Assembly: GCA_015146655.1 (NCBI GenBank)
Contig: VKHL01000046.1
Location: 62,001 to 126,000 of the forward strand
Direction: 5' to 3'
DNA: 64,000 nt
Source of the DNA: Ochromonas danica
Lineage: Eukaryota; Sar; Chrysophyceae; Chromulinales; Chromulinaceae
Shown: in pieces, positions 406 through 64,000 of the stretch
How positions within the stretch are numbered: the first letter of the stretch is position 1
Layout of the letters: each line of letters begins with the position of its first letter
Position numbers and translations under genes: made by a program
Notes under the pieces: generated by a model
The model's input: the letters and a program-made list of their open reading frames with translations, nothing else
Told to the model about the DNA's origin: nothing
Database searches by the model: none

Positions 406-2072
406 TCAAACTTTGTTGACAATGCTTAAAATTTGATTCGCCTGGTATTCGTCGAGAAACCCCTTGGTAAGCAACAATTTAACTCCGTGCTTGACCATGT
501 ATTTACCCCCAATCAATTCTTCATCATCGGATACAAGGCGATTGGCTGGGAGTTTGGTTGATTCCTGCACCTGGTGGAGAGACTTCCCATTCTCATTCTC
601 TAGAGGTGGAAAGTTGTCCCACGCGCCAGCGAGAGTCTTACTACTCCCATTCTCCAGAGGCAAAAAGTTGTCCCACCCACCAGCAAGAGTAGTGAATCCA
701 TAGGACACAGAAGATAAGCTCTCTACTCCGAAAAGAGCTTCATCCGAGCATTTCTCTAGCGCCTTCCTATCACCATAGTGATTGGCCGGAAGGGGCATTG
801 TGGAGCATGAAATAATAGTTTCCCACTGGTCCAACGAATCTCGGGGAAACTCATAACCTGTTGCCTGTACGGCAGCATATAAGGTGTTCACAACAGTATT
901 TTGAATACATTCAACAAGATTAGGATAGCAATGTTGTTCATCACGAGCAATATAATATCCATCCACTCCATTGCAAACAGCATAATGATCGACATTGCCA
1001 GAGTTTAAATGTTTGCAAGTGATAACGAAATGGTTTTTGGGATCACTACTATATCTCAATATGATGAGCTGATGAGGCATAGCTCTCCCGTTAGTGCATT
1101 GAAGCTTCTTTTCAATCAAAGCAACTGCTTGCTCTCTATTTGCATCGCTGCGAAACCATTGCACAGGAAGATCTGTTGATGGGATGGTCAAAGCAGAGGC
1201 CTTCGTCAAGGTTTGACGAAGAGGGCCAAATCGTGTAAGCCATTGACCAAACATGTTCACGGTGACTGGCTTTAATGCAAGGTCATTCCCCACAAGTCTA
1301 GAAGATGCCTCATCCATTAAAGTAGAGCTGAGAAGCGTTTGAAGATGTTCCAGAGGCAGCCTTCTACAGAATAACACCTTGGACAAGTAATCTTGATAAG
1401 CTGAAAGAAATACTTTAAACGTTGTATTCTTTGCTTGTCCAAAATTACTATGCCAAAAGACACATCCATCAACATCTCCAATCATTTGCATTGTGGCTTC
1501 ATCAAAACCTTGAGAGCTCTATTAGATAACAACAAGTCATTTTGTAATTTCTATATTTAAATCTAGCATTAAAACTACTTACTTGATATACATCTTTCAT
1601 CATAATGGCAGTAATGATCTGAAACCGATTCATTAGTTCACCTTCTAATTTATGTATGGTATGGATTCTACCCGTCCATTGAGAGATGATCACATTCTGA
1701 AGAAATCCTTTCGTAGCCTTTGTTTTACTGATACCATCAACTTCTTCTTTAATCTTTTGAAGTAGATTGATATCTTTGCCAATCAAATCACGAACCTTAT
1801 CTAAAGAAGCTTTTATTTTGGGAGAGGTATTGATGAGTGGTTGATTGCTGCAGACTTTTTGCAATGAGGAAAGACATTCTGAATAAAGGGATGTGGCATG
1901 AAGAAGAGCTCTACAGGTGACCACCAACTTCGTCTCTCCTGTACAAAACTGTTGTCAGAAGACTCTAATATATTCATATGATGGATAAAATAAGATTTCT
2001 CTCACCTTCCATAGCAGAAAGTACAAAACGAATCTCCTCTGACAAGGTCAAAGCAAGACTAATGAAATCCAT
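406..2072 (-). CDS. Cbl-TKB-like adaptor: helical bundle, EF-like segment and SH2 domain
   Basis: Three exons (2072-2006, 1938-1583, 1518-406), all with GT-AG introns and matching phases, give 511 residues. Residues 1-145 are helical and lack low complexity. Residues 160-190 have an FW...FG motif followed by an F-rich helix. Residues 231-240 read FGQWLTRFGP, and an SH2 domain follows from W262. SH2 hallmarks are the LIILRYS strand with the phosphotyrosine-binding Arg at R296, the DHY strand at 318-320 and GYYI at 328-331. The order helical bundle, EF-like, FxxFtRlFgP linker, SH2 is that of the Cbl tyrosine-kinase-binding domain, but no RING finger follows. Residues 418-449 hold two copies of a TLAGxWDNFxPLEN motif, each with a WxxF that elsewhere binds AP2 appendages. 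Inferred role: phosphotyrosine reader. The domain call is by eye and needs a profile search. The start is the first ATG of exon 1. Confidence 0.7.
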
Positions 2073-2788
2073 TATAAACACAGTGAATTCAAACTTTAAA
2101 AAACAACAAGAACCAGGAAATACAATTCAACAAGATAAATAATAGTTGAGATAACAAGGAAATAGTTGAGATAAAGATGGATCTCTCTATCTCTCTCTCT
2201 CTGTCCGTCTAATACAGCCCTCCAACACAATCAATGCATTGCGGATCACCATGTTCAACCCTCTCTCTGACGCTTTAAGTTAATACTATTGCAGTCCATA
2301 AGTCAGAAATCTTGATTTCAAACTAAACTTTGCCCAACTAGGTAACGGAAGAAATCGGAAATGTTAAAATAATAATAATAATAATAAAGACAAAAATACT
2401 TTTGATCAATGGATAGGAAATTCGAAAGATAGGTGAATTAGTGAAGTTTTACCTTCTTTTTTGAAATGAATAACAAACCAACCCAGCGATTTTAAGTTAA
2501 CATATAGCTAGTTTATAACCTTGAAATCTCAGCTTGAAACTCACCTTTCCGGCTTTCCTCTCTCTCTCTCTCTCTCTCTTGCTCTCACGCTGTCGTTGTG
2601 GAGCACTTCTTGCTCTGCCGCGGTATCTTCTTCTTCACTCGGCAATTGAGAGAAATATCATTTCTTGTCCAAGGACAATCAAAAGAAAAAAATCACCCCT
2701 CCTCTCACCTCCCTCTCCATCTTGGAAGCTCTAGTACTACTGTTTTTTTAATTTTGAATTAAATCAAATCATCTGAAGAAATCGAATC
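2073..2788. promoter_or_regulatory. Shared intergenic region of the SH2 and SAM-kinase genes
   Basis: This 716-bp gap separates two divergent start codons and must hold both promoters. It contains CT-rich tracts near 2190-2210 and 2562-2580 and an AAT microsatellite near 2370. Two copies of TTAAGTTAA lie at 2275-2283 and 2492-2500. No coding potential stands out. The short open frame near 2534-2734 is serine/leucine-rich and looks like 5' leader. Confidence 0.5.
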
Positions 2789-5700
2789 ATGAGTGAATTC
2801 AACAACTACAACAATAATGCACACTCCGCTCAATTTCAATCTGCCAATAATTATGGCCCAGCATCTCAGAATTTTAATAATAATTATTCGAACAAATCAT
2901 TTCCGAACTTTAATAACTCAGCAGGAAATAATAATGCCAGGGATCGAGTGGTGGCGGACAAACGAATATTGTCCGCTGCTTTTCTCGAGACTGCACCGGA
3001 AAGTGTTCGAGAATGGACAATCGACACTGTATCATCCTGGCTGAAAGAAATTTTTGAAGGGGCAGAAGACCTCCCCAGGTAAGCTAGAAATAGCGTATGA
3101 TCTTTCCATCTGCTGTTCATTAACGCATATGTCTTAACAGATATCAAGCAGCATTTGCCAAATTTGGGATTAAAGGAATTGATCTTCTTGGTGCTAATGA
3201 GCAAGTGCTTCATGATCTTGGCATTAGCCATCCCGTGCATTTAAATCGTGCAAGGATTGCGCTAGATCAACTGGTCGTGTATCAAAATGAATTGGACGTG
3301 AAGGAGAAAGATAAAGCTAAACTCTATGAGACAGAAAAGAATTATCACGATCTTCTAGATGAAGCCAAACGATTGAAGTTGCTAAACCCCTCTTATGCTT
3401 TGCCAAGGAAGATCGATTACTGGAAGCCTGTTGATGTGATGCTTTGGTTGAATTCTCCGAATAATACCACCGCATCCCTCGGGCTGTTTGCCAAGCCATT
3501 TGCGTTGAAAAGAATAAATGGACCTGAGTTGCTCGAGATGGTTAGCAAAAAAGGAGATAAAACAACAGTCGAAGCAGTGCTTGATGAAGTGGTAAGCGGC
3601 TTCTTGATGTTTACTCTGTATCGATATTGTCGCCTTATTTTTCTTTGTCGCCTTTCCTTTCCTCCTTCTTATTATTAGTGCCGCTCAATGGCAGAAAAAG
3701 ACAAACCCACTTCAGTGGATATCCAGCGCTTGAAAAAAGCAATTGAGGATAAAAAAGCTTATTATGAAGATTTTGAAAGAAAGATAAACCAAGAAAAAAC
3801 AGATGAAATGAAGGCGAATGTATTCCAGGTTAAAGAAAGTGAAATCCGAGAACAGAGAAACATTGGTAAGGGCAACTTTGGTGTGGTTACTGAAGCCATG
3901 TATAGAAACCAGAGAGTCGCGATAAAAAGGCTCAAGACAAATGTGTTGCCCAAAGGCGTGAAGGAAAGGAAAGGTGAAGATGGTGCGACACCCAACATCA
4001 ACAATTCCAGTGGCGAACAAAAGCAAGAAACGAAGGAAGAAGAGGCTCTTAAGAAGCAAGATAACGTGACCAAAAATAGGAGCAAAGGTGTTGTGACACA
4101 CCACATCGACGTTTCAAGTAGTAATGAAGAGCTAAGCAAGAAGGAAGAGGCGCTTAAGCATGAAGCCTACATGATGTATCGCTGTGCAGATACTTCCGTT
4201 GTTCGCCTACTTGCACAAGGGGAATTTAACAATTCTGGACGATTCTTTATTGTGATGGAGCTAGTGAACGGGTCTAATTTAGAACAGGAATATCGGTTGG
4301 CGACCAAACCTGGTGGAGAAATGTCTATTTTCCATCCAAACCATTCCGAAAATTTGAGATTACAATCTGAAGGAATTGAAGACCCAGTCTTTTATCAGAT
4401 AGTGCGCATCGGAAGAGATGTCGCTCTCGCTTTGGCCAAAATTCACCAACGTGGTATCATTCATCTTGATATTGCTGCTCGCAATATTCTCTTAGATCGG
4501 ATCAAAGGGAAGGTAAAGATTACAGATTTTGGACTGGCCCAGGAAGAGAAAGAGATGATTGAGGACAGTCGACTGCGATTTGAAGTCTCAAATAATATTG
4601 ACACCAACCATATGGATAAGAGTGAGGTTGATCATTTCATTCAATGGTCTCGAAATAAGGGTCTTGGAAGAACCGGCGAGAAAAGTAACATGTACAAGGA
4701 GGAAGCATTCAACGGGGAAATTCCACACAAGTGGAGGCCCATTTGGAACTTGAGAATGGACAGCAATCCCGAAATCCCAAAAATCGACAGACATTGCGAT
4801 ATCTACGCATATGGGTGTTGCCTTTATGAGATGCTGACAAAGCAATATCCTTTTCATGAGTTTTCAAAAACGCAAGAAGACCTGTGGAAGCTATTGGAAG
4901 CAAAAGAATCTGTTGATAGCCATCCTCGTCTTCCTGATAATCTACATCCAGGTTTTGCTGGTGTGATAAAGCGATGCTGGGGAACTTATAAAAATCAACC
5001 TGAGATGAAAGATGTGTATGTTGAGCTCGCTCAATTGCACAAAACGATCAGCCGAGGAGTTATTCTATCACAGCGAAATGAAGAAGCGTATGAGAATTTA
5101 AAGGAATTCTTCGTTGTTAAGCGCGAAACGAGTCCTTATATGAGAGGGACTGTCTATGACGGGACAGCACATCAATACTCTTTGGCTGGAAATGGATATT
5201 CTTCTTCAGGGGTTGGTGCATCAAACACAAACTATTCCATTCCAATGAAAGCTCAATATCAATTATCTAGCTATTCTGGAGACCTAAACAGCAAATCCAG
5301 TGGGTCGATCGCGTCAGCAGCAACGGAGTCTCGAGGAATTGATATTAGAAGCGAATCTGCTGAGAATGATGGAAAAGGCCAAAATCAGTATCTCGCAGTA
5401 CAAGCATTGTTGTCGCCTTTTATTTCCATCAAGATGCACGGTGATGCTTCTTCTCCACCAGGCGACTATTATACTGCTCAGAATTCTAAGCAGGGATTAT
5501 TAAACATATTGGACAATGCTTTCCAATCTCAAGATTGTTTGACAATAGCCGATACTTTAGCCATGGTTACTGTTGGCAACAGCAATGATCAACTCGATGT
5601 GATCGAGCGATGCTTGGAACTTTTGAACAAGTATGCCTCTGATTGCCATAATACGATTATGGTCGAAGAGATTTGGTTATACCTGTCGAAAAAGGTCGCA

Positions 5701-8700
5701 GATAAAATCCAAGAAACAATAGATCTCATCAACAACAAAGAAGTAGTCGTCGACTCAATTGCATCGCGTTGTTCGATTTTGATTGAGAAGGCATTTAAAA
5801 CCTTGTCTCGTATTTTGAAATTTAAGCATTGGAGTAATAAAAGGGTCACCACCAAAGATAAATACAAAAACAATGTGGAGGTTGATGAAACCGATGAGGA
5901 GTTGTTGTGGTGCAAAGAGATTGCACTTGTAGCTACATCCGCCTTGGGCATGTTTAACTCAAATGCATCAATTGTGAGTTCGTGTATTGAAGCTTTGAAT
6001 GATGCTGCAGATGATTCAGAGCAAATTATCGAAACTTTGCATGATAAAGGAGTAGTCCAGAAGTTAATTGCATGTGGAAGGAAATTCATGTCCAATGGGG
6101 AAGTTGTCAAGAGCGTCTTTAAAGCCCTCAAGGCATTCTCTTTGCGCCAAATTCTTCAACCTGATGGATCCTTGTTGATTCCCCAAAACTCTTCTCCTCC
6201 TATTTCACATGATCTGTTAGACCAATCGTGGTCCGCTTATCGACGATTAGCTTTCGATGTTATGAGGTTTTATGCACAAAGCAATAGTTCTGAAGATATT
6301 GAAGTGACTAATCATGTTTTGCATTGCTTGTGGAAAATTGTACGCTGCGGCATGTATGATACATATTCTACTTGGGAGGAAGAGGAGGAGAAGTTCTTCC
6401 TTTCTCTGACAACGGATGACATTACATGGATTCTAGATATTATCAAGTCCAACAGTGATTGTTTTGAAGTTCTGGAAAGTGCAATTGGCATTCTAAGTGT
6501 AATCCTGGAAACTGGAGTTGCTTCGCCCGTACTCAGTCAAGAAGTGATTGAGTTTAGTCACAAATTGGACCGCTCTCAACGTATTCAATTGTTCATGACT
6601 ACAGAAGATAACATAAAGAGCATTCTATCAGCAATGGAGAGGTTCTCCGTAGATGACCAAATTACCATTGGCATAGAAAGAAAGGCTCCTAGTCCTGAGC
6701 AAAGACAATATCAATCAAAAGGAGCACTCTTCTCGAATCATCGAAGCAGCAGTTACTCGAGCGCCTATGGTAAACAATCATACTATGCTGCGTCTTCTCC
6801 TTACAGCCCAACCCCAACAAATCAACAAAAAGAAGGTTCTTATTATTCTGACAGAAACGGAGCTGATACTACGGTATATTCTTCAGGAAAAGTTAGTGCC
6901 TATGATGACGAAATTCAATCCTCCATATTTACTGCTGATGGACGCATCACTGCAGGTGACTTGCAAAGAAATGCCATTAACGTCATTTCAATCATTAGCA
7001 GTGAAAGTAAAGACAAAGTTATCCAGCAGAACCTCGAACGCACTCGGTATAGCGAGCTCATACTTCAAGCTTTTCAGAATTTCAAGAACGATCCCTTACT
7101 TATCCATAACGGGCTACAAGCATTATTCCATGCTTCGAGAAAGAATGCTCGCCACCAGGCTCGTCTGCATGATCTCTCCATTACTAAGCATTTGAAAGCG
7201 GCTCTTCGAAGGTTCCTCTTCCTCGACTTCGGATCGAGTTGGAGGAGCATACTTGTTCTGGAGGGTGTGCTGGGTGCATTTTTGGGCTTATTGGATCCCG
7301 AAGATGATCAGCCTTTCAGTCCCCAAGCAATTTCTCGAGATGTTGCCACATGGACCAAAGCTTATTCCACTGTGAACGCAAACTCTCCAAAACACAAGCA
7401 ATGCAAGGACTTGGCACACATGTTGTGCCATGAAGAAGCTGAAGAGATTGAAACCATCGCCTTTTATGTCATTTATCTGTCATTAAATGATGACCCAGAA
7501 GCATCAATGTATGTGCGGCTACTGTTCATTCGATTGTTGTCTATCTTGAACTTTTGGTCACCACTCAATATAAAAGGTTCTTTCGTTCACGTAGAATTTG
7601 TTTTACTCGGCCGAAGGCATGAGCTCGATTACAGTCTTTATCGGTTTTTGATTAATCTGCTGAAAGTAGAGAGAGCACCTGAAGCAATCGCCTCGGGGTT
7701 GTCCTTGTTGGTAGAAATCAACCGTGCTTCTCAGGAAGTCAAGTATGACACAATTTTCTTGGGCAAAGAAGTTTCTAGTATCAGCCTCAGACCCGTTGAT
7801 GATGATGACAAAGAACAAGCCATTGAAGATGGAAGTGACCTCCTTAAGCTCTGTCTAATCTCATGCAAAAGGAAGTTGGACAATGTGTTATTGATTCGAT
7901 ACAGTTTGTGGGTCATGATATTAATGATCATTGGAGAAGATAAGAAAGACGAGAATAATAAGACAGTCAGTAAAGTGGCGTTAGTAGAGAACAGAGAAGC
8001 AGCATCTGAGATTGCTTTAGCCAATGGCATTGAATGGTCTATAGAAGTGTTGACATCCTTTACAGATTGTTATTCACTTCAGTCTTTATCATTACTATTC
8101 TTGATTTGGATGGAACGACGTGGACATTTTGCCAAGAGGTTAGAGCGCTTGGAGTCGCTGCGTGAAATCTTGGTGGGGATTGTGACTAATCAATGGGCAC
8201 CAAAATATCGCTCTTTAGAAGAAGAAGGTTACGATACTTCACTTGTTGGACGTACCATCTACATGTTTGGAGATGTGCCAACTCATGCTGATAGACTGCT
8301 AAAGCTCGTGGAAAAACATTTGGCTGATGCTAGTGCATCTAGCGCCAGAGGTTTTAATGATGCAGAAGAGAAAAAGGCTACTGCAGAGAATTCAAAAGTC
8401 CCGTGGGATGGAAAGAAAAGACCTCAAGTGCTTACTGTTAAACGTTATGAAGCTCAGCAAAATGGAGAGTCGGGTAAAACATCGAATGTCTATGTCATAG
8501 AGATTACGTGGGAGTTGGTTCTCATTGATCCTGTTAAATGTGTCGTAAGACCGACAGTTTGGGAGGTTCGTAAACGCTTCCCGGAGTGTGTGAAGTTCCA
8601 GAAGGAATTGATGAAGTTGTTCGCATTTTGCCCATCTTTATTCAACAAAGTTCTGACTATCACTGTGTTAGATCAAGTGACAAGATTCTTCATGGTAAGT

Positions 8701-10492
8701 ACTATAAATACCACAGTAATGAAGTAGAATTGTAATGTGTTTCTATCTGGTGTGGTTGTAGAACCGAAGCCCTGAGTTCCTAGATGGTCGTAAGCAGATA
8801 CTTCAAAACATGTTAAATGAGTTGCAAACAGTGCCGGCAGTGCACTCAAGTGCCTTTTTCCAGCATTTCATTGAGGTTGAACAATTTGTTGGGGTCGGCA
8901 ATGTCCGAAAATTACATCAACTACCTCCAATTCTTACCAACCAAAACCGTGTTAGTCTACCTGTAAACTCTGTTTGTATGGATCAAGACGAGAAGCTTCT
9001 CTTTGTTGGATGTGGTCTGGGCTATTCCTTTTTACAGAATGCTTCTTTCAATGTTATCAGAGGAAGCCTTACAGTGTACAAAGTCCATCCAGACAAGACA
9101 CCGATTCATGTTGAATGTTGCTCTATGCAATTTTGCTATGGAGTGAATTCTGTGGCTTGGGATTCATATCGTCGTTGTTTGGCTGTAGGGCTTACCACGG
9201 GTCTTATTGGTTACTATCAATTAAGTGAGGATTGTTCGACCTTGACCTATGCTGGTGAGTTGGAGTATCACCAGGACAATATCATTGGCATGGAAATGGC
9301 AATAGTTGACTTGAAGCGACTGGAAGGTTATGTTCAGCAATATCTTCATATAGCTGTCTCACGTGGTGGAAGAGCAACGATGGTAGATATGGAGTGTGGA
9401 GCACAAACATTTCAGCTTGCTAAAGCTGGGTGTCAGATAGTGTCTATGGCATTTGATTTTATTGATCAAGTAGCTTATTTCGGAACAGATGTGGGAAGGG
9501 TAATGGTCTTCAACACTGAAGAAAATAATACAAATCTACTCTTTGAAATACCAATTATGCACGACGTGAAAGGTATCGATGTAAGGACGTTTGACTATTT
9601 TGAATGTTATTAATAAGTGTTGATTTTGATAATATGTGTGTGGTTTTTGTTTGTTTTTGTACAGCCAAAAGAGAATGCTCGCAATGGAAGGGGAGATGTC
9701 CATGTTGCATATTGCCCATATCAACATCTCTTATACGTATGCCATCATAACAAGATCTTCATTTACAAGTCTTCTCCCAAGCGTAGTAGTGACAAACAAA
9801 CTGAGGCAAAGAAGCCTTTGACTTTTGCTGATGATACATTTATAACAGCAGCTCGTTTAATTCATTATGGACGTCTCCTGGTGGTGACCTGCAATAATGG
9901 GCGAGTTCTCTTGATTGATATGTCCGAAACAGTGCGTATGTTTAACCGACCCAAACGTCCTGCTTCAGATACTGCTCAAGACGTTGCGGAGGAAGCGAGA
10001 ATACAAATGGCGGAGAAAGAGAGAGAAATAGCAACTTCTCTTGCTTCTGCAATGAATTGGTCTGAAGCAGTGAAATCAAAAGAAAGCGTGATTCGTGATT
10101 GGCTCTCCAACAAAGGCGAGGCTGTATCCAATATTGTATCTCATAGTGGATTAGTGCGAGCTTTGGTAAATCAAGCCAAAATCCCATTGATGGACCTAGC
10201 AGATACAGTTTGTCCGAAAGAACCCAATTGCGAAGTTCTCTTCTTCCAAGCGTACTCCAGTGCAAAAGAAGGCGTACGCAACGTGAACTTTCGAGACATT
10301 TGCCTCTGCGAAGTGATGCAAGTGTTGTTCTTTGCTGGCGATGATGGTTATCTCTATACTCTATCATTACGAGATTTCTATGAACCTTTCACTGGTATTG
10401 ATACCAGCAATTTCTTCAGACAGAAATTTTCTCCAGGGCGAGAAATCAAGACTGCAACTCAGACAAATAAAATGACGAGGTATCAAAAGTAA
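2789..10492 (+). CDS. SAM-SAM-kinase(TK-like)-ARM-PX-beta-propeller protein, 2467 aa
   Basis: Five exons (2789-3078, 3141-3591, 3679-8694, 8762-9580, 9665-10492) join in frame. After an Asn-rich N-terminus come a SAM domain (about residues 75-150) and a second SAM-like domain (about 185-245). The kinase spans about 300-705: glycine loop GKGNFGVV, VAIK with K330, helix-C E409, catalytic loop HLDIAARN (509-516), DFG at 530-532 and KW at 598-599. AARN and the KW in the P+1 loop are tyrosine-kinase signatures. The HRD arginine is Leu, the APE glutamate is absent, and its usual arginine partner after the CW motif is Gln. Then follow an armadillo-like helical region, a PX-like domain (about 1830-1965) and a WD/propeller-like end (about 1990-2467). 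Tyr-rich linkers lie near 727-790 and 1267-1327. It could instead be a TKL kinase converging on TK motifs. It runs head-to-head with the SH2 gene. Confidence 0.8.
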
Positions 10493-11260
10493 ACAACAAA
10501 GCTTTTAATAATGATCCTATTTATCGAGTGCGTATTTACTTTTTTCTATTTTATATATTATGCGTGGTGCATTTAGTAGTAGTGGTAGTAATAGTGCATT
10601 GATGATGATGATGATGATGATGACTACTGCTCATTAGCAAACAACTCGTCCCTTCTGTCTAGTAATGCTTGAAAGACAGATGAGGAGGTTGGTTTCCTTT
10701 GTGGTGTATTATCTCATCTCATTATTATTGTGACTACTCCTCAATCGTCCTTTTGCGATTCTTTGCAGATTCCTCTCATTGACTTGCATTGAGAGGAGCT
10801 GATTATGTTGTCTTTTGTTTCTTATTGTTGCAGTTATTCTGATCATGTTATTATCCCCCGTTGACTATATAATCCATCATGTTATATAATCCTCACTATC
10901 ATTTATTATTATTGCTTTTATCATTATTATTATTGGTGGTGAAAACATTTATCAAATCAAAGCTACAATGCTACAAATCAAAGAACCTTATCTCTAGCTA
11001 TTATGAATAGCTAGCTAGTTTATTATTATCATCATATTTACTTTTGTTATATGGCACCACCTGCCTACATGTTTATAAGACAACTAAGGTATAATGTAAT
11101 GTGTGTCTGTTAGCTATTATTCTCTATATGACATGTAAAATAAGATTATCATTGATCACTTTTAAAACATTATAACCAACCATCACTCAGGTTGACTGAC
11201 TGACAACTACTTGTAGATATTTTCATTTTTGTTGGGATGGTCTAGATTATTAACAATTTT
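10493..11260. other. Intergenic, kinase 3' flank to chlorophyll synthase promoter
   Basis: AT-rich DNA with a GAT run at about 10601-10622 and several TAGCTAGCTAG-like stretches. No coding or RNA gene was recognised. Confidence 0.5.
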
Positions 11261-11369
11261 TGTTAAGTTAACTGGGGTTAAGTTAAGTATAGTGTTAAGT
11301 TAACTATTTTGTTAAGTTAACTGGAGTTAAGTTAAGTATAGTGTTAAGTTAACTATTTTGTTAAGTTAA
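11261..11369. repeat. 49-bp tandem repeat built on TTAAGTTAA, upstream of chlorophyll synthase
   Basis: Seven copies of TTAAGTTAA start at 11263, 11278, 11295, 11312, 11327, 11344 and 11361. The spacing shows a 49-bp unit present about 2.2 times, with a single G/A difference between units. The block ends about 135 bp before the chlorophyll synthase ATG, so it may lie in the promoter or 5' leader. Confidence 0.85.
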
Positions 11370-11503
11370 CTGGTTTGAGCAGCAAGAAGATCATGAGGTG
11401 CAAGTTCGATGAGAAGAAAGAACGACTTGTTTGTTGCAAGATTTACCAAAATAAAATAAAATAAATTGAAAGAAAAAGAGAGTCACATTGATCATTCTTA
11501 ATC

Positions 11504-12679
11504 ATGTTATTTTTCACTTTGATATTATATTGTTTTATTAGTCATCTTCAAGCATGGAGATTGACCCCTACTACCATTAGCAGTACTACTACTAGCACTG
11601 CTGTTAGTACCACCACTGCCACTTTTCTCAGAAGACTACCTATTAGAACTACCACTTCTTTATCTGCTACAATTAAAGAACCTAAACTAGATGACTCTGC
11701 TGCTGCACGTCAATTAATGGGTATTAAAGGAGCATCAGAAACGAAAAACATCTGGGCTATTCGATTACAATTGACTAAACCTGTCACTTGGATTCCTTTA
11801 ATTTGGGGAGTTGCTTGTGGTGCTGCAGCTTCTGGTAATTATCATACTTGGAATCCATTTGATCCTAATGGTTCTCCTTTATCTCTTGTAGGAGAAGATG
11901 CTTTAAAAGCATTTACTTGTATGATTCTATCTGGTCCATTATTAACAGGATATACACAAACTATTAATGATTGGGAAGATCGTGAAATTGATGCTATTAA
12001 TGAACCTTATCGTCCTATTCCTTCTGGTGCTATTAGTCCAGGACAGGTTATTGGTCAGATTTGGGCATTACTTCTTGGTGGTCTTGCCTTAGCCTATGGC
12101 TTGGATCAATGGGCTGGTCATGAGGACCCTATCATATTCAAGCTTTCCCTCTTTGGATCATTTATCTCTTACATCTACTCTGCTCCTCCTTTGAAGTTGA
12201 AAGCTACAGGTTGGGCAGGATCATTTGCATTGGGTAGTTCTTATATCTCTTTGCCATGGCTATGTGGACAAGCCATGTTTGGAGAACTTTCTTGGCCTGT
12301 TACCTTCCTTACCATCTTCTATAGTATTGCAGGTTTAGGTATTGCCATTGTCAATGATTTCAAGTCTATTGAAGGGGATAGGAAACTGGGCTTACAATCT
12401 TTGCCAGTAGCCTTCGGAGTGGAGAAGGCAAAGTGGTTGACTGTGGGCACAATTGATATCACACAGCTACTGGTTGCTTCCTATCTCTTCTACATTGGAG
12501 AGACGACTTACGCTCTTGTTCTCCTCGGTCTCATTGCACCACAGATGTATTTCCAGGCGAAGTACTTCCTTCCCGATCCTATTAAGAATGATGTGAAGTA
12601 TCAGGCAAGTGCCCAACCTTTCCTTGTTTTGGGCATTCTTACCACTGCCCTAGCTGTTGGTCACCATGGCCCTCTGTAG
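11504..12679 (+). CDS. chlG: Chlorophyll synthase (chlorophyll a synthase, UbiA family)
   Basis: Single exon, 391 residues. The enzyme joins phytyl or geranylgeranyl diphosphate to chlorophyllide in the thylakoid membrane. Family hallmarks are the first Asp-rich motif NDWEDREIDAINEPYRPIP (about residues 151-169) and the second, NDFKSIEGDR (about 284-293), each flanked by hydrophobic segments typical of UbiA prenyltransferases. Residues 1-18 form a signal peptide ending LQA|W, followed by a Thr/Ser-rich stretch to about residue 60. That is the bipartite plastid targeting form in which an aromatic residue follows the cleavage site. The stop is TAG, which shows that TAG terminates translation in this genome. 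The gene ends 107 bp from the convergent NPRL3 stop. A tandem TTAAGTTAA block lies just upstream. Confidence 0.95.
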   Translation: MLFFTLILYCFISHLQAWRLTPTTISSTTTSTAVSTTTATFLRRLPIRTTTSLSATIKEPKLDDSAAARQLMGIKGASETKNIWAIRLQLTKPVTWIPLIWGVACGAAASGNYHTWNPFDPNGSPLSLVGEDALKAFTCMILSGPLLTGYTQTINDWEDREIDAINEPYRPIPSGAISPGQVIGQIWALLLGGLALAYGLDQWAGHEDPIIFKLSLFGSFISYIYSAPPLKLKATGWAGSFALGSSYISLPWLCGQAMFGELSWPVTFLTIFYSIAGLGIAIVNDFKSIEGDRKLGLQSLPVAFGVEKAKWLTVGTIDITQLLVASYLFYIGETTYALVLLGLIAPQMYFQAKYFLPDPIKNDVKYQASAQPFLVLGILTTALAVGHHGPL

Positions 12680-28230: not shown

Positions 28231-31200
28231 TTAAGCACTTCCTTCTTCAACATTTGCAGGAGGAGTAGGAAGAGAATCAGCTTGTTTCATAGCTTGAATG
28301 AAGGAATCATCACCAGGGGAGATAACTTTACATCCTCGACGAACCAACTCAGCTACCAGTTCTTCTCGAGGCAAAACCACCTCCTCTTTCTTCACCATGT
28401 CCTTCACCTTGACCTGACCAGCTTCCACTTCATCACCACCAAACACGACCATGAATGGAATACCTCGTTCTAATGCCTCATCCAATTGCTTCTTAAACTT
28501 GGGATTGTCTAAATGAGAATATTCAGCAGAGATTTGAGCCTGCCAAAGAAGACGGGCCACTTGCATGCGGTGCACAAGGAGGTCAGCACCAATAGAGGCA
28601 ATGTACACCTGGATATCCACTCTCTGAGCCAATTTCAACTGTTCCGCACGGCGTTCCATGATCGTGAAGACGCGCTCCACTCCAATACTAATGCCCACAC
28701 AAGGTGTTTGAGTATTCGAAGGGCTAAACATGCCGACAAGGTTATCATAACGTCCACCAGCAGCAATTGAACCCATTTGGATCGCTCCACCGCCTTCACC
28801 TCCATTACTCACGAGAACAGCTTCATAGATGACACCAGTATAATAGTCTAATCCACGGGCTAACGAGAGATCGAAAGAGATATAGTTCAAGCTACCCATA
28901 GCCTCAAGATAGGTGAAGAGAACCTTAAGCTCATCCATGGCAGACTGAGCTACAGCATGACCAGAAAACAACGCCAAATCGGTCAATTGCTTCCATAGTA
29001 CGAGAGGAGTACCACTGTAGAGAACAAAAGTGCCAATCTTATCAGCAATCTCTTCTGGTAAATCTTTCTCATGGATCATTTCATGCTTGACTTCTTCCCA
29101 AGTCATCTTATCCAGTTTATCCACAGAAGAGCAAATAGCACGAAATTTACTACTGGGTACACCTGCCATATCAAAGATTGCGTCTAATAACTTACGATGA
29201 TTCAGTTTAATCATAAATGGTCCAATTGGCAATGCAGAGAGAATCTCAGTAGCAATTGTTATCACCTCTGCATCTGGTACCATGAGATTATACTGACCAG
29301 CAACATCAAAGTCACATTGATAGAACTCACGATAACGTCCTTTACTTAATTGTGGATTATCACGACGATAAACTTTCGCCATATGATAGCGTTTAATATT
29401 GCCCACACTATTCATGGCTAAGAAACGGGCAAAGGGAACAGTCAGATCATAACGTAAACTCAATAACTCTCCTCCTTGATCTGCTAAGTCATAGATCAAC
29501 TTACTATCTTCACCATATTTACCTGTAAGTACTTCTTTCAACTCAAAGACAGGGGTATCAATCTCCACACCACCATGACGTTTGAAAACAGAACGAATTG
29601 TATTGAAAGCTTGTTCACGAATTCGCATTTGTTCTGGAGTGAAATCACGAGCACCTTTGGCAATCTTGGGTTTGCGTTTTCCGCCAGCATGAAGACTTTC
29701 TAATAATGTTTGTAACTCTTCCAGCAAATGGCGTGGCTTTATCTCCGTGGAAGTAGCTGTAACACGTTGCCAAGTGGATACGGGCAAGATGGTAGGAGCA
29801 AGACGTCCTACCAATGTCGCAACAGGCAACTCTTCAGGAGAAGATGATCCCTCGCTTAACAAAGACAACAGTAAAGAACGAACAGCAGCACTACCATTAC
29901 CCAAGACAATACTGCTGGCTTTACGTTGTTCCTTGGCAGCTGCTTTAGCAGCAGCCTTCTCAGCTTTTGCTTTTCTTTTCGCTTCTGCTTTAGCACGTTG
30001 TTCTGGAGTGAGATGAGAGTCATCTGACTCAGGCTTATTTCCTCCAGCTTTTCCACCACCTTGCTCTCTTTCTTTTTCCTTCTCTTTCTCTTTCACTGTT
30101 TCTTGAGAAGCATCTTCAATTTGTTGTAAAGCTCGCAAAGCAAGAATCGTCTCACCAGCAAGTTGTTCCACAAGACGAACAGTTTGTAACAAGGCTTGAG
30201 GTTGACTATCAGAGGAATATACTATATAGTCAGAAGAGGGGAGATTGAAAGTAGTAGATAGCAAACGACAACGAACTTGCGATGCTTGAATAACTTGTTC
30301 AACCACTGCCATAGCATTGTTCAAATAGGCCACTGCTTGACTATCCGTTAAAACCATCCCACGCTCAATAGAAAGTGGGAAGATTTCAGAACTATTCAAT
30401 TCAATATCCATGACTCTAGAAGCCATTGCAAAAATATCAATAGCAGGTCCAGTAGTCTGTGGGATATCAACAATAACCCATGCTTCTTTATTCATTGAAT
30501 TAAACGAAGAAGTAACACGTTTAGATCCTTCTAATAATGCTTTCAAATTACTTGCTGACTGCATTTGACCACGATGCTGACGGAATGTTTCAAAAAGTGA
30601 GGAATCAAAAGCATCTAATGGTGCACCCATCGCTTCACAAGTTAATACATTAATAGTATCCGCTAAACGAATGACTTGACTTGCACTTCCAACCATTAAA
30701 CAAGCTAAACCAATAGTAAGAAATGGAGAATTGATTAAAGCAGCTTGTTCTGATGGATAAAGAAGTAAAGGCTGATGATTCAATCTTTGCAAGGTATCTT
30801 TAGCAGTTAGAACAATACCTTCTTCATTAACAGCATAACCATATCCTTCTAAGAAAGCAATTAATTCTTCATCACCTTTTGTTGTAGAAGATAATAAAGG
30901 TGTATATTGTTGATTAACTAAATCCGTTAAGATTGTTAATACATTAGGACGGAAAGGAGTTTTACCCACTAAAAGAGAAAGAATACGATAAATTAATCCA
31001 CTACGAACAATAGAAGGTAATAATGCAGTAGAAGGTGAAATAGTAGAAGGTAAATGAGTTATAATTCTCTCTCCAATAGATTGAGGAAGTTGATTTTGTT
31101 TAATATCTTCTGAATTCTTCCAGATTTCTTCTAAACGATTTAATGAACTTTCATCCAAGGTTAAACAATTGGATAAAGGATGAGAAAGAGCAAGAAGATC

Positions 31201-31242
31201 ATCAATAGTTAAGCGTTTACCACCACCTAAGATAACGTTCAT
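28231..31242 (-). CDS. HARS: Histidyl-tRNA synthetase with HAL-like N-terminal domain
   Basis: Single exon, 1003 residues from the ATG at 31242. An in-frame ATG at 31500 would add 86 residues that look like translated 5' leader. Residues 1-310 resemble histidine/phenylalanine ammonia-lyase: LGGGKRLTIDDLLALS at the start, SEQAALINSPFLTIGLACL, then ADTINVLTCEAMGAPLDAF and a RQHRGQMQSASNLKALL stretch. The ASG triad that forms the lyase MIO cofactor is absent, so this domain is not expected to be a lyase. A charged Lys/Glu/Ala linker (about 390-460) leads to the class II core: motif 2 in KVYRRDNPQLSKGRYREFYQ, the HisRS-specific ARGLDYYTGVIYE, then the anticodon-binding domain. I recall a similar N-terminal domain in plant cytosolic HisRS. 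It charges tRNA-His. Confidence 0.93.
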   Translation of the reverse strand: MNVILGGGKRLTIDDLLALSHPLSNCLTLDESSLNRLEEIWKNSEDIKQNQLPQSIGERIITHLPSTISPSTALLPSIVRSGLIYRILSLLVGKTPFRPNVLTILTDLVNQQYTPLLSSTTKGDEELIAFLEGYGYAVNEEGIVLTAKDTLQRLNHQPLLLYPSEQAALINSPFLTIGLACLMVGSASQVIRLADTINVLTCEAMGAPLDAFDSSLFETFRQHRGQMQSASNLKALLEGSKRVTSSFNSMNKEAWVIVDIPQTTGPAIDIFAMASRVMDIELNSSEIFPLSIERGMVLTDSQAVAYLNNAMAVVEQVIQASQVRCRLLSTTFNLPSSDYIVYSSDSQPQALLQTVRLVEQLAGETILALRALQQIEDASQETVKEKEKEKEREQGGGKAGGNKPESDDSHLTPEQRAKAEAKRKAKAEKAAAKAAAKEQRKASSIVLGNGSAAVRSLLLSLLSEGSSSPEELPVATLVGRLAPTILPVSTWQRVTATSTEIKPRHLLEELQTLLESLHAGGKRKPKIAKGARDFTPEQMRIREQAFNTIRSVFKRHGGVEIDTPVFELKEVLTGKYGEDSKLIYDLADQGGELLSLRYDLTVPFARFLAMNSVGNIKRYHMAKVYRRDNPQLSKGRYREFYQCDFDVAGQYNLMVPDAEVITIATEILSALPIGPFMIKLNHRKLLDAIFDMAGVPSSKFRAICSSVDKLDKMTWEEVKHEMIHEKDLPEEIADKIGTFVLYSGTPLVLWKQLTDLALFSGHAVAQSAMDELKVLFTYLEAMGSLNYISFDLSLARGLDYYTGVIYEAVLVSNGGEGGGAIQMGSIAAGGRYDNLVGMFSPSNTQTPCVGISIGVERVFTIMERRAEQLKLAQRVDIQVYIASIGADLLVHRMQVARLLWQAQISAEYSHLDNPKFKKQLDEALERGIPFMVVFGGDEVEAGQVKVKDMVKKEEVVLPREELVAELVRRGCKVISPGDDSFIQAMKQADSLPTPPANVEEGSA

Positions 31243-31623
31243 GTTCGATGCTCGTGACGATGCTAATAAAAATGATGATAATGATAGGGATAGGCAATGC
31301 CAATCAATGAGGGAATGGCAGGAGGAAGACAAGGCGGGGGAAGACCAAGAAGGCTGAAGGGTGAAACACACTCGCCACACCACACAGCCACAACAACACT
31401 GCGCACCTTGGAAAACTCCTATTTTGCGATTTATAACTCTTCTTCTCTGAACGAGCGGTGAGGATTGTGCGTGAACTTTGGAATTGCGTGGGGTTGGCAT
31501 GGGGTTAGTTTAAGCTTAAAGACGTTGTTAATGATATTAATATCGTGTGATCATCAACAACGAAGCAAGCTAAGCAAGAATACACAATGTATGAAGAGGA
31601 TTAAACACACATTGAGTAGTAAA
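31243..31623. other. Intergenic, HisRS promoter and NOP56 3' end
   Basis: The 381-bp gap holds the HisRS promoter or leader and the NOP56 3' UTR. No additional gene was seen. Confidence 0.4.
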
Positions 31624-57954: not shown

Positions 57955-59307
57955 CTAGAAGCCCTCGAAATTGCTGTGGTCACCAGCTCTCTCTAAACGA
58001 GGAATGAACGGAGGAACAATCCTTCTCTCATAGACTGCATCCCATGGGAGAGAGAAGAATTCGTGCTTCTTTATATTCTCCATATCCGTCAATCTCTCGT
58101 CGACTCTAGCAAGACAGAGAGATGCTATGAAACGTCGTGATGTCGGAACAACATTTCTGGGAAAAGAGATCTTCCTGTTCATAATGCGCAAGAAGATCTC
58201 ATAAGGTGAGTCGGTCATGGATCGAACAAATGGAGTGCGACCCGTCAAGAGCTCAAATATCACCACTCCGAAAGCCCACCAATCCACCACTTCCGTATAG
58301 CCGTTCGTCAGATTGCTGTCCAGTTGCTCAGGAGACAGATAGGCAGGGGTTCCGCAAAACGTATGCAACTTATGGGGGTCACGGTATTTCGTCGCTAACC
58401 CCATATCTAACAGCTTCACATGACCCAGCTCATCGATGCCCACATTCTCAGGCTTGCAATCACGATACACAAATCCTGATTTATGCACATGTTCCAACGC
58501 GACGAACAGTTCCGCGGCATAAAAGCGCGCAGCTTCATTGGACAGCCTATGCAGCTTTTGGTGATATAAATAGCGATGGAGATCTCCACCAGGTGCATAC
58601 TCGAGTGCCAGATAGAAGTTTTCCTTGTCATCCAAACATCCGAAATACTGCATACAAAACGGAGAGTTCAAGGAAGACAACACCAGCTTCTCGTTCTCCA
58701 AGTACTTCTCGTAACGATTGCGCTTATTGCTGATTTCCTTCGGGATGCATTTCATGACGAAGTACTTCCTAGGTGCTTCTCGCGCTGCTGCCAAAAAGCA
58801 CAGCTTTACACAACCTCTCGAACTTCGAAATAACGTGGGACCAAACTCCATCGCTTTCGTAGACAGAACTAGATTCGACAATCGCGCTCTCTTCAACAGC
58901 CAGGGGAAGCTGTCATCGCAGTAAATTCTGTGGCGCCTCTCAAACTCAGCGACCCTCCTCTCCAGAGGTTGCAAATCCATCTGATTGGTGGTAGCCCTCT
59001 CAAGGAAGTCTGGCAATTCACTTGCTCGTCGACGTGAGGTGCCAGCCGAATTAGACCGTGGTTTAGGTTGTAACGGGACCATATTCGAGGTGGAAGAGGA
59101 GAAGGAGGTGAAGCGTCGATTCCGATCAGAAGATTTAGAGCTCAGAGAACTTTCGAGCGTTCCGGTTGATGTCTTCGTTGAGGGTTTCATTCTCTCTGAT
59201 CCTTGTGATATCAACGAAGAAAGCAGGGAGAGGGTGTTGTTATTACTTTTTCCACTGCCCGATGTGATAATTTCGTAATCAGCAACTTTGGTTTGACGTC
59301 CTCCCAT
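57955..59307 (-). CDS. AGC-type (PKA-like) protein kinase, copy 1
   Basis: Single exon, 450 residues from the ATG at 59307. The protein begins MGGRQTK, a possible N-myristoylation start. A Ser-rich basic region precedes the kinase (about 155-420). It has VMKCIPKE with the ATP-binding Lys, YRDCKPENVG in place of YRDLKPEN, LLDMGLA (DMG for DFG), CGTPAYLSPEQL and DWWAFGVVIFELLTGRTPF. The glycine loop is degenerate (FRSSRGCVKL). The C-terminal SNFEGF tail matches the PKA-type AGC tail (SNFDDY). Catalytic Lys, both Asp residues and the APE-type Glu remain, so activity is possible. The gene is repeated at 63287. Confidence 0.85.
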   Translation of the reverse strand: MGGRQTKVADYEIITSGSGKSNNNTLSLLSSLISQGSERMKPSTKTSTGTLESSLSSKSSDRNRRFTSFSSSTSNMVPLQPKPRSNSAGTSRRRASELPDFLERATTNQMDLQPLERRVAEFERRHRIYCDDSFPWLLKRARLSNLVLSTKAMEFGPTLFRSSRGCVKLCFLAAAREAPRKYFVMKCIPKEISNKRNRYEKYLENEKLVLSSLNSPFCMQYFGCLDDKENFYLALEYAPGGDLHRYLYHQKLHRLSNEAARFYAAELFVALEHVHKSGFVYRDCKPENVGIDELGHVKLLDMGLATKYRDPHKLHTFCGTPAYLSPEQLDSNLTNGYTEVVDWWAFGVVIFELLTGRTPFVRSMTDSPYEIFLRIMNRKISFPRNVVPTSRRFIASLCLARVDERLTDMENIKKHEFFSLPWDAVYERRIVPPFIPRLERAGDHSNFEGF

Positions 59308-60879
59308 GAGATAGATTCGATGAAAGATAGAAAATGAGAACAAGGCTTAGAAAAAAATGGTTGAGCGGAGCAAAGCTTTGATAGTGGGATGATTGTGAAT
59401 AAGCAAGTAGGATGTACCAGGAATGGATTGGATTGCGAAAGGTGAAGGATGGAAAATGAGAATGGTGGGCGGGTGGTCGACGCGGTTGCAGCAGCAGATT
59501 GGAGATGCGAGAGCGAGCTGGGGGTCTGGGTAAGGACAAGTTAGAAGTCCCATTTTGAGGGTTTGTGTACATGGACTGCCGCCTTCCACACCCGTTCAAG
59601 ATATTATACCCAACACCTTTCTGCGTTGAAATTTTCGTTGCCGCGGTTCGGGGTTGCCGTTGCCGTTGCCGCGACAAAGAGCATTCAAAGATCGAAGATA
59701 ACGCTTGCGAAGCACAGGCATTTTGTATACCCTTGCTTCCTTAGTGGGGATCAGAACTTTTTCCCAGGATTCACAGCCTCCCTAAAAATTCCCGATGATT
59801 GAGTTGCGCGACAAAACATTCATTTTGCTGTTCCTATTTACCATGGGCATGAACAATAGCTCCTTGAGATATTGATTATTGTAGGCATATTCGTTGGTAT
59901 CATTTTTGATAATCTTGGATACCACCGACAGGTCATTTGAGTCATTTGAGACAGGTATAAAATGGCGATTGAGCCATGCTATTAATTTGCTATTTTCAAT
60001 TTTAGCTGCTGTAATCTCGTTTTGTGCCAGATAAAACACTCCACCATTACGATGGTTTCAGACGGATAGATTCAGTTGTTGTTTCTCCCACCTGGAGTTA
60101 GAAACCTCTCCAGACATGTTATGCTGGCCTGCATCTAAGAGAGCAGGTTTTGGTCTCTATCCCGAGAGCAAAGATGCTAAAAGACATGCTCTTCACAAAT
60201 AAAAACATGGTAGTTGCTATTTAGAAGCTGCAAGAGATTTAAAAGACCGAAACTTCCCTATATGGGCAGTGCAAAGCGGCTGCAAATGGGAGAGAGCTTG
60301 GCCGGTCCTCTTGCATTGGAGCCGAAAGCAGTAGATACTACTACACAGTAACAATACAAACCTTAAACTAATCAACATGGAGTATCTGGCTGTTCTAGTT
60401 GACTTCTTCCTTCTGTTCTCCTCACCCACGCCTCCATCCTCCACGTTACTCAATCCACTACCGCGCTTTAATCCATTCGTGAAACAAGATGGTGCAGAAG
60501 ACTCGGCTTCGACGCTTGATAAGCAAGCATGCTTAAATTTGCAGTATATGAAAGAAATGGTTGCAGTTGAAGTTTGGCTGACTCAGGACAAGTTCTGTGT
60601 GTGAGTCTATAGGTACGTTAGCATTAGTTACGGTCACAACAGAACACTTACATTCTGAGTACAGCGTTGTCCGGGGTCAAGCGGGGTTCTCGCATCGCTG
60701 CTATTTGTAGTGGCAATACCATATCAATTGAAGTACCCAGCAGTCCGCATAATGAGTGATTCTAGGCATCAACAAAAGCATAAACCACTGATCTTTTTGT
60801 ACATCACTTTGGCAAGTTGTGCAACGCAGAAATGCGAAATATAAAGGTCCATGCCACCTCATGCTTGAATGTGCTAGTA
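59308..60879. other. AGC kinase promoter and spacer of the duplication
   Basis: Contains a GCCGTTGCC repeat near 59655-59670. The end (60585-60880) is homologous to 55140-55330, the flank of copy 1. The region between holds only short open frames without features. Confidence 0.5.
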
Positions 60880-63286: not shown

Positions 63287-64000
63287 TTAGAAGCCCTCGA
63301 AATTGCTGTGGTCACCAGCTCTCTCTAAACGAGGAATGAACGGAGGAACAATCCTTCTCTCATAGACTGCATCCCATGGGAGAGAGAAGAATTCGTGCTT
63401 CTTTATATTCTCCATATCCGTCAATCTCTCGTCGACTCTAGCAAGACAGAGAGATGCTATGAAACGTCGTGATGTCGGAACAACATTTCTGGGAAAAGAG
63501 ATCTTCCTGTTCATAATGCGCAAGAAGATCTCATAAGGTGAGTCGGTCATGGATCGAACAAATGGAGTGCGACCCGTCAAGAGCTCAAATATCACCACTC
63601 CGAAAGCCCACCAATCCACCACTTCCGTATAGCCGTTCGTCAGATTGCTGTCCAGTTGCTCAGGAGACAGATAGGCAGGGGTTCCGCAAAACGTATGCAA
63701 CTTATGGGGGTCACGGTATTTCGTCGCTAACCCCATATCTAACAGCTTCACATGACCCAGCTCATCGATGCCCACATTCTCAGGCTTGCAATCACGATAC
63801 ACAAATCCTGATTTATGCACATGTTCCAACGCGACGAACAGTTCCGCGGCATAAAAGCGCGCAGCTTCATTGGACAGCCTATGCAGCTTTTGGTGATATA
63901 AATAGCGATGGAGATCTCCACCAGGTGCATACTCGAGTGCCAGATAGAAGTTTTCCTTGTCATCCAAACATCCGAAATACTGCATACAAAACGGAGAGTT
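63287..64000 (-). CDS. AGC-type protein kinase, copy 2 (cut by window end)
   Basis: The last 237 or so residues of a second kinase gene; the 5' part lies beyond the window. The protein from MQYFGCLDDKENFYL to the SNFEGF end is identical to copy 1. Comparing line by line, I found no nucleotide difference in the coding sequence, third positions included. The sequence just after the stop already differs (CCACTAG against CCATTAG and beyond). The features (YRDCKPENV, DMG, AGC tail) are therefore the same as in copy 1. Confidence 0.85.
   Translation of the reverse strand, partial: NSPFCMQYFGCLDDKENFYLALEYAPGGDLHRYLYHQKLHRLSNEAARFYAAELFVALEHVHKSGFVYRDCKPENVGIDELGHVKLLDMGLATKYRDPHKLHTFCGTPAYLSPEQLDSNLTNGYTEVVDWWAFGVVIFELLTGRTPFVRSMTDSPYEIFLRIMNRKISFPRNVVPTSRRFIASLCLARVDERLTDMENIKKHEFFSLPWDAVYERRIVPPFIPRLERAGDHSNFEGF

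Follow-up and report, generated by a model that had tools for sequence, protein, structure and literature searches.

The locus and its genes

The window analysed here is a stretch of 64,000 nucleotides from Ochromonas danica (contig VKHL01000046.1, positions 62,001 to 126,000). Two divergent genes lie head to head near its start, one encoding a probable SH2 adaptor of 511 amino acids and the other a kinase protein of 2467 amino acids. Together they are put forward as a candidate minimal phosphotyrosine (pTyr) writer-reader pair in a photosynthetic alga, a tentative reading with the balance somewhat against it.

Both gene models were reconstructed by splicing at GT-AG introns. The SH2 gene (positions 406..2072, minus strand) consists of exons 2072-2006, 1938-1583 and 1518-406, ending with the stop codon, and has two introns. 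The kinase gene (2789..10492, plus strand) has exons 2789-3078, 3141-3591, 3679-8694, 8762-9580 and 9665-10492, separated by four introns. All six introns are 62-87 bp long with GT..AG ends, and the reading frame of the kinase gene is kept. The start codons are separated by an intergenic region of 716 bp (2073..2788) with 35.6% G+C. An earlier note on this DNA had given the same two protein lengths, which the rebuilt models reproduce exactly, and the 716-bp region it described is confirmed when measured from start codon to start codon. The observation of the locus is real.

The probable SH2 domain

The smaller protein very probably has an SH2 domain, at residues 262-338 (928..1158, minus strand), as indicated by Pfam, hhalign, the order of elements in an AlphaFold2 (AF2) model and alignment to SRC. 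The pocket of an SH2 domain depends on a beta-B5 arginine, an alpha-A2 arginine and a beta-D4 histidine, and R296, R269 and H319 are found at these places. R296 is at the invariant column, and R269 and H319 are in register with SRC in the sequence alignment. The same three residues and S298 lie at the pTyr pocket, at positions that we take from general knowledge to be its phosphate-holding sites. W262 and a GYYI motif from 328 are also present, and H319 is part of a DHY motif; the residue numbers agree with the hallmarks (Arg296, DHY, GYYI) first noticed in the earlier note.

SH2 is the sole Pfam family matched by the whole protein at E values up to 10, and the alignment spans positions 1-68 of the 77 in the profile (PF00017). 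The score is 15.2 bits for the whole protein (E 0.023), 16 bits for the 361-amino-acid frame of the last exon (E 0.013), 17.4 bits for residues 151-375 (E 0.0049) and 20.4 bits for residues 252-352 (E 0.00055), the last being a piece picked with the match already known. A match, though sub-threshold, is present where the earlier note had placed the domain (residues 255-345). With hhalign and a profile built from ten SH2 domains, the SH2 core scored 32.1 (probability 62%, 76 columns), and the maximum in 150 shuffles was 20.4. The full protein scored 32.3 (probability 45%); the maximum among 155 real open frames taken from this genome was 24.75, and this best decoy aligned over just 14 columns. 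The genome's own Spt6 SH2, a positive comparison, reached 41.1 (probability 82%). Removal of the CBL and STAT rows from the profile gave a score of 29.6. An AF2 single-sequence model of 101 residues displays a strand, a helix, four strands and a helix, which is the SH2 order, at low confidence (predicted local distance difference test, pLDDT, 54; predicted template modelling score, pTM, 0.48).

Several results tell against an SH2 domain. The Pfam score is below the cut-off of 21 bits in all runs (15.2-20.4 bits). With small home-made hidden Markov models (HMMs) of SH2 domains, hmmsearch scored the protein at 3.8 and 3.6 bits and decoys at up to 7.0 and 8.1. The pairwise alignment with the SRC SH2 is in register but is matched by 19 and 34 of 1000 shuffles, and that with the ABL1 SH2 is out of register. 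An AF2 model of a 225-residue fragment, made without relatives, was unsuccessful (pLDDT 37). The sub-threshold Pfam score and home-made HMMs that do no better than decoys are what would be expected if an unrelated alpha/beta domain matched SH2 by chance; this is very improbable, as the Pfam sub-pieces, hhalign and the AF2 model agree on SH2 over most of the domain, with the pocket residues in register. The SH2 assignment of the earlier note is thus supported by pocket residues, Pfam, hhalign and AF2 order, with the reservation that the Pfam score is under its cut-off.

A STAT-like SH2 protein was also considered and rejected. The linker and SH2 compared with human STAT1 gave a score at chance (reached by 675 and 863 of 1000 shuffles), and an SH2 profile of STAT and CBL only failed to align.

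Relationship to Cbl

The order of a helical part, an EF-like part and an SH2 domain is shared with the tyrosine kinase-binding (TKB) region of Cbl (human CBL, PDB 6o02 among others). The human CBL TKB sequence, identical to PDB entries, was compared part by part by Smith-Waterman alignment with two matrices. An EF-hand-like part of Cbl-TKB type is found at about residues 148-261 (1159..1500, minus strand). The score of residues 141-262 against the CBL EF part was reached by 5 and 3 of 1000 shuffles and, in a set of 672 real pieces that overlap one another, by 4 and 2, so that the part matches CBL above most controls, and the FW..FG residues are in register with CBL. The score of the TKB as a whole was attained by 1 and 2 of 1000 shuffles and, whichever matrix was used, by 3 of 141 real pieces.

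The remaining parts differ from Cbl. The N-terminal region, residues 1-145 (the first two exons and the beginning of exon 3; 1507..2072, minus strand), is at most weakly similar to the four-helix part of CBL. Its score was equalled in 55 and 45 of 1000 shuffles, which denotes no special closeness, and Pfam gave no match on residues 1-144. The SH2 domain fits the general SH2 profile and not that of CBL; 105 and 177 of 1000 shuffles reach its score against CBL's SH2, again no special closeness, and a CBL/CBLB profile scored 18.8 in hhalign, inside the shuffle range (maximum 24.4). No canonical Ca2+ loop was seen by eye in the EF-like part, and none of the Pfam Cbl models matched in the 511-amino-acid protein. 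The C-terminal tail, residues 345-511 (406..909, minus strand), follows the TKB without a Pfam RING match and holds three cysteines. As the tail has no RING, the protein would be an adaptor and not a Cbl ubiquitin ligase. The resemblance to Cbl, which is mainly in the EF-like part, is suggestive, and the protein may represent a Cbl-type module. The description 'Cbl-TKB-like' in the earlier note is weakly borne out by the EF-like part and the whole TKB, both above most controls, but not by the four-helix part, the SH2 domain, the CBL/CBLB profile, the Pfam Cbl models or a RING.

The tail also carries a duplicated peptide, TLAG[GA]WDNF[LP]PLEN (window positions about 595-695, minus strand), a possible linear docking motif.

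The large kinase protein

The 2467-amino-acid protein begins with a SAM domain at residues 74-131 (3008..3243, plus strand), split by intron 1. Pfam SAM_2 matches it with 26.8 bits in the whole protein and 30.5 bits on residues 1-184 (cut-off 20.5). The kinase domain, about residues 300-707 (3835..5058, plus strand), is defined by Pfam PK_Tyr_Ser-Thr (E 3.5e-26), motif positions and trees. A PX domain split by intron 3 is at residues 1874-1958 (8557..8878, plus strand; 28.1 bits, cut-off 21.6), and a WD40-type propeller-like region extends from residue 1980 to the end (8942..10492, plus strand). The Pfam propeller matches in this region are weak and below their cut-offs (EML_2, E 1.2e-05; RIG_2nd, E 0.00028), and no PDB sequence match was found for residues 1833-2467. 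A second SAM domain at about residues 185-275 was rejected, there being no Pfam SAM match at that position.

Tyrosine kinases (TKs) display the catalytic loop HRDLAARN or HRDLRAAN and, in subdomain VIII, P-x-K/R-W followed by APE. Tyrosine kinase-like (TKL) enzymes have the Ser/Thr-type loop HRD-K-x-x-N and the motif G-T-x-x-W-M-A-P-E. In place of the TKL motifs, the window kinase has HLDIAARN at 509-516 and PHKW, with K598-W599, in the P+1 loop; both are tyrosine-type signatures, and the AARN and KW on which the earlier note had relied are thus present. The codon-level pattern H-x-D-[FILMV]-A-A-R-N has a single match in the genome searched (31.2 Mb, 337 contigs), which is the window kinase, and its backwards control has 0. 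The Src-type RAAN loop also gave 0 matches in the genome, in scans that overlook motifs interrupted by introns. The catalytic residues K330, E409, D511, N516 and DFG (from 530) are retained, and kinase activity is therefore predicted. Tyrosines in the linkers of the kinase protein reach a maximum of 10 per 70 residues, a value reached by 62 of 2000 shuffles; these tyrosine-rich linkers are possible docking sites.

There are also departures that speak against an ordinary tyrosine kinase. The HRD arginine is replaced (HLD) and APE is absent, two points on which the earlier note is silent, so the enzyme is not a textbook member of the class. Neither the glutamate of APE nor the subdomain XI arginine that usually pairs with it has been kept. 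The distances from K330 to E409 (79) and from DFG to KW (68) are large, as both spacings are usually much shorter in kinases. The loss of the HRD arginine, APE glutamate and subdomain XI arginine, together with the great extra length of the N-lobe and activation segment, would also fit a degenerate, pseudokinase-like scaffold that acts through its SAM, PX and propeller-like parts and to which the SH2 protein binds or does not bind. With the catalytic lysine, glutamate, aspartate and asparagine and the DFG aspartate all retained, such a scaffold is improbable.

Placement of the kinase

A kinase-domain search of the genome, in which the best first-look candidates were scored, returned 36 places. 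Three are the gene itself, and the remaining 33 are led by a kinase termed C71 (E 1.6e-6). Trees were made with 29 kinases, consisting of 22 references, six algal kinases and the window kinase. The window kinase falls within TK plus TKL with support 98/96 when all columns are used and 98/88 without the signature columns. With all columns it stands beside the TKs, support 76/85.

The finer placement is weakened in two ways. Without 12 signature columns the window kinase leaves the TKs, though the approximately unbiased (AU) test then does not reject the TK grouping (p 0.194). The kinase branch is also very long, with 3 changes per column. As the pull to the TKs disappears without the 12 columns, the shared TK signatures could be convergent. 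Other groupings of the window kinase were not clearly rejected, with AU p values of 0.06 with TKLs (the TKLs by themselves give 0.057), 0.245 with C71, 0.267 with algal HLD kinases and 0.208 with outgroups and non-TKL kinases. Of the tyrosine-kinase reading of the earlier note, the TK-type signatures are present and the TK plus TKL clade is favoured by the trees; a place among the TKs proper, at 76/85, is lost without the 12 columns.

C71 (L038 3522-9760, on contig C71) is a TKL kinase with the loop HRDLKSSN, spread over several frames. Its kinase part is behind a long, repeat-rich, GGA-type region with an extracellular appearance and a hydrophobic stretch, which makes it a receptor-like kinase of the alga.

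Adjacency and related genes

Paralogue searches of the genome, in each of which the best first-look candidates were scored, returned 3 places with the SH2 protein, each of them an exon of its gene, and 2 with the PX-propeller part, again from the gene itself; neither has a paralogue among these. The one AARN kinase detected in the genome has an SH2 gene as its neighbour. As a rough inference for a pair selected for its striking look, the chance of this is about 2k/10,000, where k is the number of SH2 genes and the total of roughly 10,000 genes is an extrapolation from 20 counted in 64 kb. It is unlikely that two rare genes would end up side by side by accident, except in a genome rich in SH2 genes.

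Other observations on the neighbourhood are less favourable to a functional pair. Divergent neighbours are common locally, comprising 6 of 19 adjacent pairs with gaps of 233 to 2875 bp, and the shared upstream region alone therefore says little. This count was based on 20 genes or frames in the 64 kb, picked from 30 listed rows after three kinase pieces were merged, one doubled row was dropped and seven uncertain frames were left out. A family search for SH2 in the genome returned nothing and missed even the SH2 of the window; it is too insensitive in this genome to yield k. The Spt6 SH2_2 was found. No relative of either gene was detected in viral and prokaryotic contig collections, and since these hold viruses and prokaryotes, little is learned from them about other algae.

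It is conceivable, at not far short of an even chance, that the SH2 adaptor is genuine and has, by accident, an unrelated and rapidly evolving kinase of the TK/TKL superfamily as its neighbour. The kinase would then be Ser/Thr or dual-specific, and the SH2 domain would read pTyr made by other dual-specificity kinases. The local abundance of divergent pairs is consistent with this, as are the loss of the TK pull without the 12 signature columns and the groupings with C71, HLD kinases and outgroup or non-TKL kinases at p 0.21 to 0.27. AARN and PxKW are nonetheless a tyrosine-type signature pair, AARN occurs once in the genome, and two rare genes would seldom adjoin by coincidence if SH2 genes are not numerous. 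Joint action of the SH2 and kinase proteins is plausible.

Four PTP-family (protein tyrosine phosphatase) matches were found on three contigs of the genome. Only one gene, on contig C172, fits the CX5R pattern tried, with N replacing H before the cysteine; it is a possible eraser.

A proposed writer-reader pair

The writer-reader proposal takes domains, residues and gene arrangement from the sequence and adds to them tyrosine specificity, pTyr binding and joint action. The large protein would be a scaffold kinase. Its SAM domain may serve in assembly, its PX domain may direct it to phosphoinositide membranes and the propeller-like region may hold partners. The kinase domain, with tyrosine-type catalytic and P+1 loops, would phosphorylate tyrosines, perhaps first those of its own tyrosine-rich linkers. 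The SH2 domain of the 511-amino-acid protein, carried behind an EF-like and a helical part as in Cbl, would bind such phosphotyrosines, and the tail would recruit partners in an adaptor role.

It is further hypothesized that a self-contained writer-reader unit arose in the alga or survived there from an early eukaryote, in the form of a divergent tyrosine kinase that carries fused domains for membrane targeting and scaffolding, encoded head to head with a RING-less Cbl-type SH2 adaptor. This broader proposal is rather unlikely. Phosphotyrosine signalling is usually seen as a matter of animals and amoebae, with hints in oomycetes. If true, the pair would provide a small natural system for asking how writer-reader circuits begin, and whether a kinase with substrate loops of tyrosine type plus an SH2 adaptor can function with hardly any further parts. 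It would bear, too, on whether there was a Cbl-type helical-EF-SH2 module without a ubiquitin-ligase role.

Comparison with other protists

Phosphotyrosine parts in protists are already known. Acanthamoeba has 22 protein tyrosine kinases (PTKs), six of them with SAM domains, and 48 SH2 proteins, some of whose SH2 domains resemble CBL's, among others (PMC4053784). This protist, with pTyr writers, readers and erasers, is similar to the present case in having SAM on PTKs. It differs in that one AARN kinase and one SH2 adaptor were seen in the present alga, where PX and propeller-like parts are joined to the kinase.

Two kinases of Phytophthora infestans, PITG_02400 and PITG_02529, combine the AARN loop with a subdomain VIII of TK type, and their lineage has few SH2 proteins, four of them plausible (PMC3019232); the window kinase is comparable in these respects. 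In the oomycete kinases the loop reads HRD(I/L)AARN in full, and they group with metazoan TKs at strong support, after a first analysis had put them with TKLs (PMC3019232); in contrast, the window kinase has HLD and is not firmly placed among the TKs.

In Physarum there are 4 tyrosine kinases and 18 SH2 proteins, and in Physarum and Dictyostelium the TKL enzyme Pyk2 phosphorylates tyrosine and some SH2 proteins are STAT-like (PMC4758236). These organisms are likewise protists with SH2 readers and few or no tyrosine kinases. They differ in that the SH2 protein of the window shows no likeness to human STAT1. A phosphoproteome table of the green alga Dunaliella includes a Src homology 2 protein (PMC5441111). 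Searches of open-licence literature brought up no report of an SH2-kinase pair in an alga, and none of a head-to-head pair there with this kinase architecture.

Host genome and neighbouring genes

The genome has 47 light-harvesting matches (gene pieces counted), and the frame at 11504-12679, beyond the kinase gene, is the chlorophyll synthase ChlG, above its curated cut-off. These show the host to be an alga, as the earlier note had assumed. The signal-like N-terminus of the chlorophyll synthase leads to the guess that the host has a complex plastid. Four of the light-harvesting matches (G000:C224:8673-16382) have equal scores and a regular spacing of 2407 bp and apparently form a tandem array.

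Short repeats based on GTTAAGTTAACTGG were noticed by eye between the kinase and chlorophyll synthase genes, at about 11255-11375. At 28231-31500 (minus strand), an uninterrupted frame of 1089 amino acids combines an ammonia-lyase-like domain with a histidyl-tRNA synthetase. The former, at about residues 160-379, is a partial histidine/aromatic ammonia-lyase-like sequence in which no [AS]SG motif was found; the latter, at residues 614-1042, matches TIGR00442 above its cut-off. Two neighbouring kinase frames with the loop YRDCKPENVGI, at 57955-59343 and 63287-63985 (both minus strand), are identical over 232 shared residues and the stop codon, which points either to a duplication of very recent date or to a duplicate made in assembly.

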